This document shows positions 33,339 to 45,231 of a stretch of DNA of 49,101 nucleotides, piece by piece. The stretch covers positions 1 to 49,101 of the forward strand of contig JANQKV010000028.1 in the NCBI GenBank assembly GCA_028280945.1, read 5' to 3'. The notes under the pieces were generated by a model. That model saw only the letters and a program-made list of their open reading frames with translations. It had not been told where the DNA came from and ran no database searches. Source of the DNA: Opitutaceae bacterium. GTDB taxonomy: Bacteria > Verrucomicrobiota > Verrucomicrobiia > Opitutales > Opitutaceae. Both the position numbers and the translations under genes were made by a program. How positions within the stretch are numbered: position 1 is the stretch's first letter; each line of letters opens with the position of its first letter.

Positions 33339-34403
33339 ATGCCCAATCCTCCTCATCCCACCGCCACCCGCAGTGAAGTCGAAGCGGTTCTGCGATGCTC
33401 CTCCGATGCTCGCGAGATGCCCCTCTTCCTCCCCGCCATCTACGAACACAAAGCCGCCTTCATCGGCAGCACGCCTTCGGCCATTTCGCGCGATGCCGAT
33501 TTGTTTACCAAGGCCCTGCTAGCCGAATATGAGGCCATCGGACCGGACGCCCTCGCGATCGGTGTTGATGTTTACAACCTAGAAGCCGAGACCGTGGGCT
33601 GCACTGTCCACTTTTACGAGGGTGACGATACCTCCATTCCCGGCATCAAACCCGGCAATCACGTGATCAAGGTTGGTGACGACCTCACCAACGCTCCCCT
33701 GCCCAATCCGCTTACGGACGGCCGCATGCCCATCAATCTCGAGGCCACGCGCAACATCCGCCGCGAACTGGGCGACGACTTCTGGATCCGCGGCGCCATC
33801 TCCGGGCCGTTCTCCCTGGCCATTTCGCTGGTTGGAGCCGAGGACCTGTTTCTCGCCTGCCTCGATCAACCCGAATGGGTGGAGGACGTCCTCGCCTACT
33901 CCGGCCGCATCATCAAGGAGTTCTCCAAGGGCTACATTGATGCCGGCGCCGAGCTCATCGTTTTCGATTCGCAGGCTTCGCCCGAGCTTCTTTCTCCGAC
34001 CATGTATGAGGAGATCGTCCTGCCGGTTACCCAGGATCTGGTGAAGTGGTCGACTGAGCAAGGCGTGCGTGACCTGCCGCTCATCATCGGCGGCAACACC
34101 ACCCCCATCGCGGGGCTTCTCGCCGAATCCGGCGCCAACAACCTGTTGTGTGATTTCACCGCCGACTTCGACGAGTGGGCGGAAGTCTGCGAAGACAACG
34201 GCCGCGCCTTCCGTCGCAACATTTCCCCGCGCCTGATCGAGACCGCCACTCCCGATGAAGTCTACGAGGTGGCGGCCCGCGAGGCGGCCCGGGGCAAGGA
34301 CATCCCCGGCTTCATCCTTGGCACGGCCGTGGTCCCGTTCGGCTCTCCCACCGCCAACCTGCTCGCCATCAAACAAGCCATCATCGACAGCACCAACGCC
34401 TGA
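33339..34403 (+). CDS. Uroporphyrinogen decarboxylase-family methyltransferase (candidate methyltransferase I), zinc ligands absent
   Basis: A 354-aa TIM-barrel protein of the UroD/MtaA/MtbA/CmuA superfamily. Segments FWIRGAISGPFSLAISLVG, VFDSQASPELLSP and GNTTPIAGLLAESGANNL align with the methyltransferase branch. In MtaA and MtbA zinc is held by a HxC motif just before GNT and by a Cys near the C-terminus. Here the first reads LIIGGNT (Ile and Gly at the ligand positions) and the second FILGTAVVPFGSP (Ala for Cys), so all three ligands are lost. Immediate neighbours are a corrinoid protein (6 bp downstream) and methyl-transfer genes, so transfer of a substrate methyl to the corrinoid is the likely job. 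Substrate activation must differ from MtaA. Confidence 0.83.
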   Translation: MPNPPHPTATRSEVEAVLRCSSDAREMPLFLPAIYEHKAAFIGSTPSAISRDADLFTKALLAEYEAIGPDALAIGVDVYNLEAETVGCTVHFYEGDDTSIPGIKPGNHVIKVGDDLTNAPLPNPLTDGRMPINLEATRNIRRELGDDFWIRGAISGPFSLAISLVGAEDLFLACLDQPEWVEDVLAYSGRIIKEFSKGYIDAGAELIVFDSQASPELLSPTMYEEIVLPVTQDLVKWSTEQGVRDLPLIIGGNTTPIAGLLAESGANNLLCDFTADFDEWAEVCEDNGRAFRRNISPRLIETATPDEVYEVAAREAARGKDIPGFILGTAVVPFGSPTANLLAIKQAIIDSTNA

Positions 34404-34409
34404 TACCCC

Positions 34410-42910: not shown

Positions 42911-42924
42911 GCGCCGGTCCTTCC

Positions 42925-45231
42925 ATGCCTGCCTCCAAGCCTCCTCTCCCCGATGCCGAACCGCCGCGCAAACTGTTGCGGCTGGGGCAGTCGGCGCCCC
43001 CCGGCAAGGCGGTGGGAGCCACGGCGGTCATCAATTCCACCAAACACATTCAGGCGCAGGCGGGCATGGTGCGCGGCACCCGGGCGCTGCTGCGGGCAAA
43101 CCAAAAGGGTGGTTTTGACTGCCCGAGCTGCGCGTGGCCCGATCCCGACGACGAACGGTCGAGTTTCGAATTCTGCGAAAACGGCGCCAAGGCGATCGCC
43201 ACCGAAGCCACCCGTAAACGGGCCGACGCCGAGTTTTTTGCCCAATACTCCATCGCGGAGTTGGCGGCCCTGTCCGACTTCGAACTCAACGACGCCGGAC
43301 GCCTGACCGAACCGCTGCTGCTCGACCGTGACGCCACGCACTACCGACCCATCGCCTGGAAAGACGCCCTCGCGCTGGTCGCGGAAGAACTCAACGGCTG
43401 CGACTCGCCCGACCAAGCCACCTTCTACACCTCGGGTCGCACCAGCAACGAGGCGGCGTTTCTGTATCAGCTCTTCGTCCGCCAATACGGCACCAACAAT
43501 CTGCCCGATTGCTCCAACATGTGCCACGAGTCCAGTGGGGCGGCGCTCAAGATGACCATCGGTATCGGCAAGGGCACCGTGACACTCGAGGACATTGAAA
43601 ACACGGACTGTATCATGGTGATCGGCCAGAACCCGGGCACCAACCACCCGCGCATGCTCACCTCGCTGGAGAAGACGGTGAAACGTGGCGGACGTATCGT
43701 ATCCGTAAACCCACTACTCGAGACCGGCGTCAAGGCGTTCGCCCATCCCCAGAAGCTTTCCGGGCTGCTCGGGGTGGCAACCCCCCTGCAATCCCTGCAC
43801 GTCCCGGTGCGCATCAACGGCGACCTGCCCTTCGTCAAGGGCCTGCTCAAGTGCGTGCTGGAGGCCGAGGCCCTCAATCCCGGCACCGTCGTGGACCGTG
43901 ATTTTGTTGCGGAGCATACCCAGGGTTACGAGGCTTTGATCGCACATGTCGGAACCGCCTCGTGGGATGACATTACCACCCAGTCCGGCCTGACCGAGAC
44001 ACAGGTCCGCGAAGCGGCAGACGTGTTCATCAACGCCCGGGAGTGCATCACCTGCTGGGCCATGGGGCTCACCCAGCACCACAATGCGGTCGAGACAATT
44101 CAAGAGCTGGTGAACCTGCATCTGCTCACTGGAAAAATCGGCCGCCCCCGCAGCGGTCTCTGCCCGGTCCGGGGCCACAGCAACGTGCAGGGCGATCGCA
44201 CCATGGGCATCTGGGAACGCCCGCCCGCGCCGTTTCTCGACAAGCTGGACACCGAGTTTGGATTCAAATCCCCCCGTGAGTTTGGCTACGACACGGTCGA
44301 AGCAATCGAGGCGATGCACGAGGGCAAAACCCGCGTCTTCTTCGGCCTGGGCGGCAACTTTCTCTCCGCCGCCCCCGACACCCATTTCACCGCCGAGGCG
44401 CTGCGCAAGTGTCGCCTCACCGTGCACGTCTCGACCAAGCCGAACCGGGCCCACCTCGTGACGGGCGAACGCGCCCTGATCCTGCCCTGCCTTGGCCGCA
44501 CCGAGGCCGACCGGCGCGGCGACCGTCCCCAGTTTGTGACCGTGGAAAACTCCATGGGCGTGGTGCACAGCTCCGAGGGAAAACTGTCGCCGGCGTCACC
44601 TCATTTGTTGAGCGAAGTCGCCATCATCTGTGGATTGGCCGAGACCACACTGGGCACATCGAGCACCGTGCCATGGCGGGTGTTGGCCGATGATTATGAC
44701 CGCATTCGCGAGCACATCGAACGTGTCGTGCCGGGCTTCGATAAATTCAACGTGCGCATCCACCAACCCGGCGGCTTCTATTTGCCCAATGGGGTGAAAG
44801 AGCGTCGGTGGGATACCAAGACGGGCAAGGCGCGCTTCACCGTGAACGAACTCGCCCCCCTGCAACTTGAGCCGGGACAACTGCTGCTGCAAACGTTCCG
44901 CAGCCACGACCAGTTCAATACCACGATCTACGGCAACAACGACCGTTACCGCGGCATCAGCAACGAACGCCGGGTGATCTTCATGAATCGTGAGGACATG
45001 GTGGATCGGGGACTGAAGCCTCGACAACCCGTCGACATCATCAGCCATTTTGAAGGCGAAATGCGCACCGCCGAGCTCTTCCTGGTGATCCCTTACGACA
45101 CTCCCCGCGGCTGCGCGGCCGCCTACTACCCCGAGGCCAACGTGCTCGTGCCGATCAAAAGCACCGCCAACATCAGCCGCACCCCCACCTCCAAGTCGAT
45201 CGTGGTAACCGTGCAACCGCGCGCAAGCTGA
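42925..45231 (+). CDS. FdhF/YdeP-family molybdopterin oxidoreductase (formate dehydrogenase-like)
   Basis: The ATG at 42925 gives a 768-aa protein. The family-typical opening GFDCPSCAWPDPD (Cys 66 and 69) and FEFCENGAKA (Cys 84) could ligate an Fe-S cluster. SNMCHESSG places the probable Mo-ligating Cys at residue 200. Later segments (IGQNPGTNHPRM, GLCPVRGHSNVQGDR) bind the bis-MGD cofactor. E. coli YdeP is the best-known relative; true formate oxidation is not established for all members. No TAT signal is present, so it is cytosolic. Last in the demethylase operon, it may oxidise formate derived from the methyl group to CO2. Confidence 0.87.
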   Translation: MPASKPPLPDAEPPRKLLRLGQSAPPGKAVGATAVINSTKHIQAQAGMVRGTRALLRANQKGGFDCPSCAWPDPDDERSSFEFCENGAKAIATEATRKRADAEFFAQYSIAELAALSDFELNDAGRLTEPLLLDRDATHYRPIAWKDALALVAEELNGCDSPDQATFYTSGRTSNEAAFLYQLFVRQYGTNNLPDCSNMCHESSGAALKMTIGIGKGTVTLEDIENTDCIMVIGQNPGTNHPRMLTSLEKTVKRGGRIVSVNPLLETGVKAFAHPQKLSGLLGVATPLQSLHVPVRINGDLPFVKGLLKCVLEAEALNPGTVVDRDFVAEHTQGYEALIAHVGTASWDDITTQSGLTETQVREAADVFINARECITCWAMGLTQHHNAVETIQELVNLHLLTGKIGRPRSGLCPVRGHSNVQGDRTMGIWERPPAPFLDKLDTEFGFKSPREFGYDTVEAIEAMHEGKTRVFFGLGGNFLSAAPDTHFTAEALRKCRLTVHVSTKPNRAHLVTGERALILPCLGRTEADRRGDRPQFVTVENSMGVVHSSEGKLSPASPHLLSEVAIICGLAETTLGTSSTVPWRVLADDYDRIREHIERVVPGFDKFNVRIHQPGGFYLPNGVKERRWDTKTGKARFTVNELAPLQLEPGQLLLQTFRSHDQFNTTIYGNNDRYRGISNERRVIFMNREDMVDRGLKPRQPVDIISHFEGEMRTAELFLVIPYDTPRGCAAAYYPEANVLVPIKSTANISRTPTSKSIVVTVQPRAS

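Follow-up and report, generated by a model that had tools for sequence, protein, structure and literature searches.

Among described corrinoid systems, the O-demethylases of acetogens (MtvABC, Odm and Vdm) and the archaeal Mto system share a UroD-type methyltransferase I, a corrinoid protein, a pterin methyltransferase II and an ATP-dependent activating enzyme. We analyzed a 49,101-nucleotide stretch of DNA (hereafter the window) from an Opitutaceae bacterium (assembly GCA_028280945.1, contig JANQKV010000028.1; contig 46 of genome G000, which measures 5.4 Mb and is 96% complete), in which a block of eleven genes at positions 33339-45231 encodes all four component types together, the gene complement of a four-component O-demethylase. 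Unlike the acetogen and Mto systems, the block adds a MetF-MetV fusion, an amidohydrolase, a protein resembling the activation domain of methionine synthase (MetH) and two orphan proteins; the genome of its host, at the completeness given, contains three COX1-family oxidase matches and no PF01268 match for Fhs (formate-tetrahydrofolate ligase), and a sister version of the block has xylan and uronate genes as neighbors. The lack of an Fhs match argues that the module is not part of an acetogenic Wood-Ljungdahl methyl branch, and the oxidase matches indicate that the organism can probably respire oxygen. We propose that the block encodes a corrinoid O-demethylase module for O-methylated sugars with an exchangeable methyltransferase I, a reading to which we assign a probability of roughly 0.57; its reactions and both of its substrates we infer.

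Gene content and known corrinoid systems

The eleven open reading frames all lie on the + strand and are tightly spaced, as a preliminary description of this DNA had reported: no gap exceeds 51 bases, and three short overlaps occur. A regulator gene diverges from them. Families were assigned by Pfam and NCBIfam scans, structures were compared with the PDB and with Foldseek, and profiles were aligned with hhalign. The genes are as follows:

32401..33291, - strand: AraC-type regulator with a cupin sensor domain, divergent from the operon (Pfam HTH_18, Cupin_2, AraC_binding)
33339..34403, + strand: MT1, UroD-superfamily methyltransferase, proposed sugar:corrinoid methyltransferase (URO-D PF01208, 123 bits)
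34410..35054, + strand: CorrP, corrinoid protein (methyl carrier) with two B12-binding domains (PF02310 and PF02607)
35078..36670, + strand: MetFV, MetF-MetV fusion of a methylene-tetrahydrofolate reductase and a MetV-type C-terminal domain in a single chain (MTHFR PF02219, residues 48-276; DUF5981 PF12225, residues 409-487)
36719..37684, + strand: MT2, methylcorrinoid:tetrahydrofolate methyltransferase (Pterin_bind PF00809)
37686..38987, + strand: amidohydrolase with a complete metal site and a proposed role in the folate branch (Amidohydro_1 PF01979)
38999..40645, + strand: RACo-type ATP-dependent corrinoid reductive activator with a 2Fe-2S domain (PF14574, PF17651, PF00111, Fer2)
40642..41214, + strand: X190, methionine synthase activation-domain-like protein (profile match to 1j6r)
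41211..41666, + strand: X151, small protein with four invariant cysteines (alignment of 47 sequences)
41660..42010, + strand: X116, protein conserved among relatives (ATG at 41663)
42062..42910, + strand: TIM282, xylose-isomerase-like TIM barrel (PF01261 match weak, below cut-off)
42925..45231, + strand: FdhF, molybdoenzyme of the FdhF/YdeP family, candidate formate dehydrogenase (TIGR01701)

The family scans recovered the four O-demethylase component types, the adjacent AraC regulator and the molybdoenzyme that the preliminary description had named; FdhF scored 923 bits against a TIGR01701 cut-off of 582, which places it in the family. The PDB matches of MT2 were methyl-tetrahydrofolate:corrinoid/iron-sulfur protein methyltransferases and MetH folate domains. 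RACo contained both its middle and its C-terminal domain, and the operon copy was the only PF14574 match in the genome. Judged from these families and from the conservation of the genes, methyl transfer to tetrahydrofolate by the predicted four-component module is well supported. A second pair of UroD and corrinoid proteins was observed in the window genome (G000:C2:142844, locus L004), its corrinoid protein showing 50% identity over 200 residues; since there is no second RACo in this genome, the pair may share the activator of the operon.

The earlier names of a B12-activation-domain protein and a Cys-rich protein were likewise borne out. X190 gave no Pfam match; a 12-row profile of this protein matched the methionine synthase activation-domain structure 1j6r over positions 65-184 (E 9e-7). 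In X151, the four cysteines were invariant in 47/47 sequences, together with a Trp and a His, and the predicted model was a confident, compact alpha/beta fold (pLDDT 85.9) that gave no PDB fold match at E <= 0.001; no significant sequence relative was found. The predicted topology suggested an IscU/SufU scaffold, which was rejected, as hhalign against 15 SufU-type (NifU_N) proteins returned probabilities of about 5% or less and IscU ranked only seventh in Foldseek (E 0.47). X190 and X151 were fused in the nine sister-version loci that were gene-called first. X116 matched no Pfam family below E 0.1 and had 11 relatives 50-80% identical to the window protein. In another family of the phylum (G341, L033:9440-14623), a 621-residue fused UroD-corrinoid protein with an HxC motif, seen by eye, precedes genes for RACo, X151, a homocysteine S-methyltransferase and X116 in this order; X151 and X116 thus also serve an apparent methyl-to-homocysteine system.

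The CmuA/CmuB chloromethane pathway of methylotrophs, which are oxygen-respiring bacteria, combines UroD and corrinoid components with transfer to tetrahydrofolate and MetF-type oxidation. CmuA is a fusion within TIGR01463 (MtaA/CmuA), whereas the module described here consists of separate genes, and both MT1 (104.8 bits) and MT1b, the UroD protein of the sister version (95.5 bits), fell outside this family (cut-off 235.4). Because MtaA/CmuA proteins and the MtaA-type structure 4ay7 were the best-named sequence relatives of MT1, the block might be akin to MtaA/CmuA or to mlp clusters and act on methyl-sulfur compounds, methyl halides or methylamines. We consider this unlikely, as MT1 scored under half of the family cut-off, and a profile alignment to 4ay7 placed I and G in the columns of the MtaA HxC motif, which we take to be zinc ligands for thiol activation. 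According to the accessible part of PMC10418091, type 1 mlp clusters share with the module a UroD-superfamily methyltransferase, a corrinoid protein and a Ram/RACE activator and contain at least Mlp2 and Mlp3 and no tetrahydrofolate methyltransferase; the module, with one UroD gene and a Pterin_bind MT2, differs from the clusters described there.

Loss of the HxC motif is not evidence against methyl transfer by MT1, since zinc is dispensable in some UroD methyltransferases: in the accessible part of PMC13222342, CdmB works without zinc, and the veratrole and vanillate O-demethylases contain zinc. The CdmBCA chloromethane system described in the same text shares a separate UroD-type methyltransferase I, a corrinoid protein and a methyltransferase II with the module and differs from it in gene neighbors. 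CdmB (9rui) was matched by MT1b (E 5e-9) and was absent among the matches listed for the window MT1.

For polysaccharide sugars, the accessible part of PMC10033563 describes demethylation of the 6-O-methyl-galactose of porphyran by a cytochrome P450. Removal of methyl ethers from such sugars would be a role common to both systems; the P450 route is oxidative and releases formaldehyde, whereas the module would transfer the methyl group to folate without O2. We recognized no precedent for corrinoid-dependent sugar demethylation in the titles and abstracts of the open literature, which is weak evidence of absence, as subscription journals lay mostly outside this search. The component types are known; as far as searched, there is no earlier description of the cassette, its link to xylan uronate genes, the small proteins or MT1 exchange.

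Conservation of the block and its folate branch

A first homologue scan of named genomes yielded 15 loci with MT1 identities of 69-88%, all hosted by metagenome-assembled genomes of Verrucomicrobiota or a subgroup, mostly Opitutaceae. X116 and X151 were used as marker proteins for the module; the former was present in 7/387 genomes of the phylum and the latter in 47/252 genomes of the family (18/49 genera). Gene surroundings covered 45 of the 47 X151-marker genomes, the window included (G511 and G593 lay outside), in contexts of 5 to 49 kb, several of them cut by contig ends and with approximate gene ends from codon-score gene calling. Before counting, L005, L015, L017 and L018 were removed; the last three match G518, G600 and G470, and L005 is a partial window-type locus matching no fetched genome. 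L014 and L016, both likewise partial, were not entered, and G357 and L008 were among the contexts but outside the 46-context presence table. G422 was counted as window type only, as the MT1b mark of the table there is a 26% match to another UroD gene. A UroD gene paired with a separate corrinoid protein gene, plus a third gene, was observed close to the window-type operon of G422 (L076:1133-3936, - strand), and this UroD protein is 38% identical over 191 residues to that of L004 in the window genome.

The neighborhood search suggested in the preliminary description revealed 20 loci, the window among them, that keep the order MT1-CorrP-MetFV-MT2-amidohydrolase-RACo-X190-X151-X116; they come from 19 genomes and 9 Opitutaceae genera, and G539 is the only window-type locus without the amidohydrolase. 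This recurrence is more than chance. The claim of a complete eleven-gene operon held for these nine genes and not for the last two, as TIM282 and FdhF were found at the locus only in the window, G388, G389, G390 and G391, all of the same genus, in which G091 and G271 carry the sister version instead. FdhF was rejected as a core part on this distribution, and TIM282 was rejected as part of the module because its homologues outside the close group (34-46% identity; 29 genomes searched) were scattered; a module lay no more than about 15 kb away in G510 and G271 alone. An AraC gene in divergent orientation accompanied 16 of the 19 other window-type loci; in G470 and G600 the contig starts there, and G595 is a true miss at the sensitivity used. 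A scan for promoters and terminators revealed fewer promoter-like sites than in shuffled sequences and terminator-like sites near chance. MT1 was present in 19/19 of the other loci (68-88% identity, median 74%). The corrinoid protein, with a median of 81%, was the most conserved protein of the block, and X190, AraC and X151 were the least conserved (medians of 42-44%).

The amidohydrolase was found in 33/36 contexts with MT2 (missing in G539, G403 and G404) and in 0/10 contexts without MT2, four of which are cut short. Its metal-site residues H87, H89, K203, H245, H265 and D337 were invariant in 33/33 sequences, and its nearest solved sequence relatives were prolidase- and imidazolonepropionase-like. 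Since the protein travels with the folate branch whatever the MT1, we propose that it may hydrolyze a folate-bound C1 unit, for example formyl-tetrahydrofolate. FolD and PurU, the latter above its cut-off, are encoded elsewhere in the window genome, which, together with the lack of an Fhs match, makes an oxidation route through PurU and FdhF possible. The preliminary description had the C1 unit pass to tetrahydrofolate and on to CO2; the transfer stands, and the oxidation is possible only, with FolD and PurU present and FdhF at the locus in just five genomes, all of the window's genus.

A sister version beside xylan and uronate genes

At 17 loci, which represent 9 genera, the set RACo-X190-X151-X116-CorrP is accompanied by a different UroD protein, MT1b. 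The loci were searched for UxuA, GH67, GH115 and other sister genes with query sequences taken from G274 alone. UxuA was present at 11/17 sister loci, GH115 at 6/17 and GH67 at 5/17, with at least one of the three at 12/17; the other five loci (G408, G404, G491, G403 and G405) span just 11-17 kb each, and in G408 the roughly 8 kb available on the upstream side of RACo contained no UxuA. The 20 window-type loci, some of them short as well, had none of these three genes. At the G274 locus, the operon strand encodes, according to Pfam, a LacI regulator, UxuA, a short-chain dehydrogenase/reductase (SDR), a homocysteine S-methyltransferase and GH115 with a glucuronoyl esterase domain, whereas GH43, GH67 and GH8 are encoded on the opposite strand. 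These neighbors are tools for the release and use of xylan 4-O-methylglucuronate.

Across the family, GH67 was found in 66/252 genomes. The class tests, which leave out nine of the 47 marker genomes (G389, G391, G415, G357, G429, G513, G562, G593 and G596), gave GH67 in 17/17 MT1b genomes versus 49/235 others (Fisher 2e-11, uncorrected for shared descent); with G548 and G511 added, in the wider row only, the counts were 19/19 versus 47/233. A sugar as methyl donor is thus strongly indicated for the sister version by its xylan and glucuronate genes, and the association with UxuA, GH115 and GH67 points to 4-O-methylglucuronate from xylan.

The same association could reflect a lignocellulose niche, since xylan and lignin co-occur, with MT1 demethylating lignin-derived methoxyaromatics like MtvB, OdmB, VdmB and MtoB and the sugar neighbors being background. 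The known UroD-superfamily O-demethylases act on methoxylated aromatics in the accessible part of PMC13222342. We regard this as improbable: UxuA and an SDR gene stand in one run with MT1b (G546: UxuA-SDR-MT1b-CorrP-MetFV-MT2-amidohydrolase, on a single strand), which an aromatic substrate leaves unexplained, and the scan of flanking proteins, a sample rather than every gene, turned up no aromatic (ring-cleavage or other degradation) or methylamine families. Consistent placement of homologues beside such genes, named in the preliminary description as an argument against a sugar substrate, was therefore not seen in this sample.

Homocysteine S-methyltransferase lies within 20 kb at 12/17 sister loci, of which eight have MT2 and four lack it, and is carried by the six uncut contexts without MT2 (G274, G341, G396, G395, G491 and G548), where the methyl group may go to methionine. 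This finding and the variable flanks of the window version would suit methyl salvage, in which the module supplies methionine or C1 pools with methyl groups of a common small donor and the window version is not tied to sugars. We judge salvage to be an unlikely explanation, as 0/20 window-type loci have the homocysteine enzyme and 20/20 have MetFV and MT2, a pattern that favors folate-linked oxidation or C1 supply; moreover, the AraC/cupin regulator belongs to a type that is common for sugars. In G415, a second MetFV-like gene (44%) and a second pterin methyltransferase (33%) were observed past the marker genes, together with a 638-residue protein matching homocysteine methyltransferase (32%) and MetF (25%) (L080:34-4243 and L100:14253-16169, both - strand); these genes are possibly a second folate/methionine branch.

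Substrate of the window version and proposed pathway

The genes flanking the window operon include the following:

28416..29831, - strand: protein named a sugar-acid dehydratase earlier; in G435a and G435b a homologue comes immediately after X116
29842..32301, - strand: putative glycosidase (low-confidence (alpha/alpha)6 model)
47009..48451, + strand: rhaB-like kinase (FGGY domains)
48552..49100, + strand: rhaA (L-rhamnose isomerase), truncated at the end of the window

The rhamnose genes of the preliminary description were confirmed. The best NCBIfam model of the kinase was rhamnulokinase (357 bits, below the cut-off of 639), and the rhaA start was 79% identical over 183 residues to a G388 protein that passes the rhaA cut-off. 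In a search of 27 genomes (19 with MT1 seen and 8 unclassified marker carriers), rhaA and the marker gene were 5-13 kb apart in the window genome, G388, G389 and G390, all of the window's genus, and in G422 and G539, so that rhamnose genes stand beside the window-type operon in three lineages; the contig of G391 ends before any rhaA position. The flanks of the window version vary between loci: GntR-type regulator with a DHDPS-type aldolase and SDRs in G375 and G599, a sugar-type MFS transporter and a glucosamine-isomerase-like gene in G510, GH2 and GH43 in G595, and sulfatase- and trehalase-like genes in G598. A homologue of the putative glycosidase also adjoins the operon in G390 (L007), L005, L016 and G422, and none was seen in G388; its model (mean pLDDT 49.6) resembles (alpha/alpha)6 glycosidases, the best being a putative alpha-rhamnosidase (E 3e-7), and is too poor for a family call. 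Elsewhere in the window, a heparinase II/III-like protein is followed by a sodium:solute symporter (5108-9025), possibly a uronic-acid polysaccharide locus. Based on the genes beside the window-type loci, a methylated sugar or sugar acid is the likely substrate, and a sugar as methyl donor is indicated only circumstantially. The preliminary claim of a methylated-sugar donor thus fares better for the sister version. Read cautiously, the high conservation of MT1 and the corrinoid protein suggests one conserved substrate for the window-type MT1.

Several findings weigh against a sugar substrate. MT1b and MT1 are only 17-25% identical over their aligned parts, and the substrate of the sister version is therefore not simply transferable. 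GH67 does not track the window version (7/19 versus 59/233, p 0.28) and is absent from the window's own genome; a xylan link for this version was rejected on this distribution. MT2 (73%) and MetFV (70%) are nearly as conserved as MT1, so that conservation says little about the substrate, and next to the MT1 of L008 no corrinoid gene was found. Family scans do not bear out the names dehydratase and glycosidase: the 28416-29831 protein gave no Pfam or NCBIfam match at the thresholds used, and the 29842-32301 protein gave no Pfam match and only chance PDB sequence matches (E 0.69 or worse). Sugar genes are common around these loci generally and may be background, and an FAH-like protein, identified by eye and of a family presumably known from both aromatic and sugar-acid pathways, adjoins the marker locus of G357. 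Finally, rhaA is absent from 13 of the 27 genomes searched and lies away from the locus in G420, G429, G435, G470, G510, G512 and G513, on which grounds methyl-rhamnose was rejected as a single general substrate.

In the proposed O-demethylase module for methylated sugars, the Co(I) of the corrinoid protein would receive, through MT1, the methyl group of an O-methylated sugar or sugar acid, and MT2 would pass this group on to tetrahydrofolate. The MetF-MetV fusion would then oxidize methyl- to methylene-tetrahydrofolate, FolD would take this on to formyl-tetrahydrofolate, and PurU, or the amidohydrolase of the operon, would hydrolyze the latter to formate, which FdhF may oxidize in the window's genus. 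RACo and X190 would return oxidized cobalt to Co(I). MT1 would be the exchangeable, substrate-specific part: the sister MT1b most likely takes 4-O-methylglucuronate of xylan or a derivative, and the window MT1 may take a different methylated sugar, methyl-rhamnose being our best guess. It is an even bet whether the Opitutaceae possess a whole family of B12- and folate-dependent sugar O-demethylases, in which one activator-carrier-oxidation cassette serves exchangeable UroD methyltransferases (for 4-O-methylglucuronate and for another methylated sugar) and the amidohydrolase is a new formyl- or methenyl-tetrahydrofolate hydrolase.

The interest of the module rests mainly on the sister version, with which an open question on methylated xylan becomes testable. 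Xylans, those of hardwood among them, regularly carry 4-O-methylglucuronate side chains, and ordinary hexuronate catabolism would leave the methyl ether of this sugar acid on a three-carbon product, so that some demethylation step is needed. If the proposal is true, an oxygen-independent, folate-linked route would explain this step and the methyl group would be recovered as energy or methionine; the module would also provide a gene marker for methyl-ether turnover in polysaccharides and would extend corrinoid O-demethylation from aromatics to carbohydrates.

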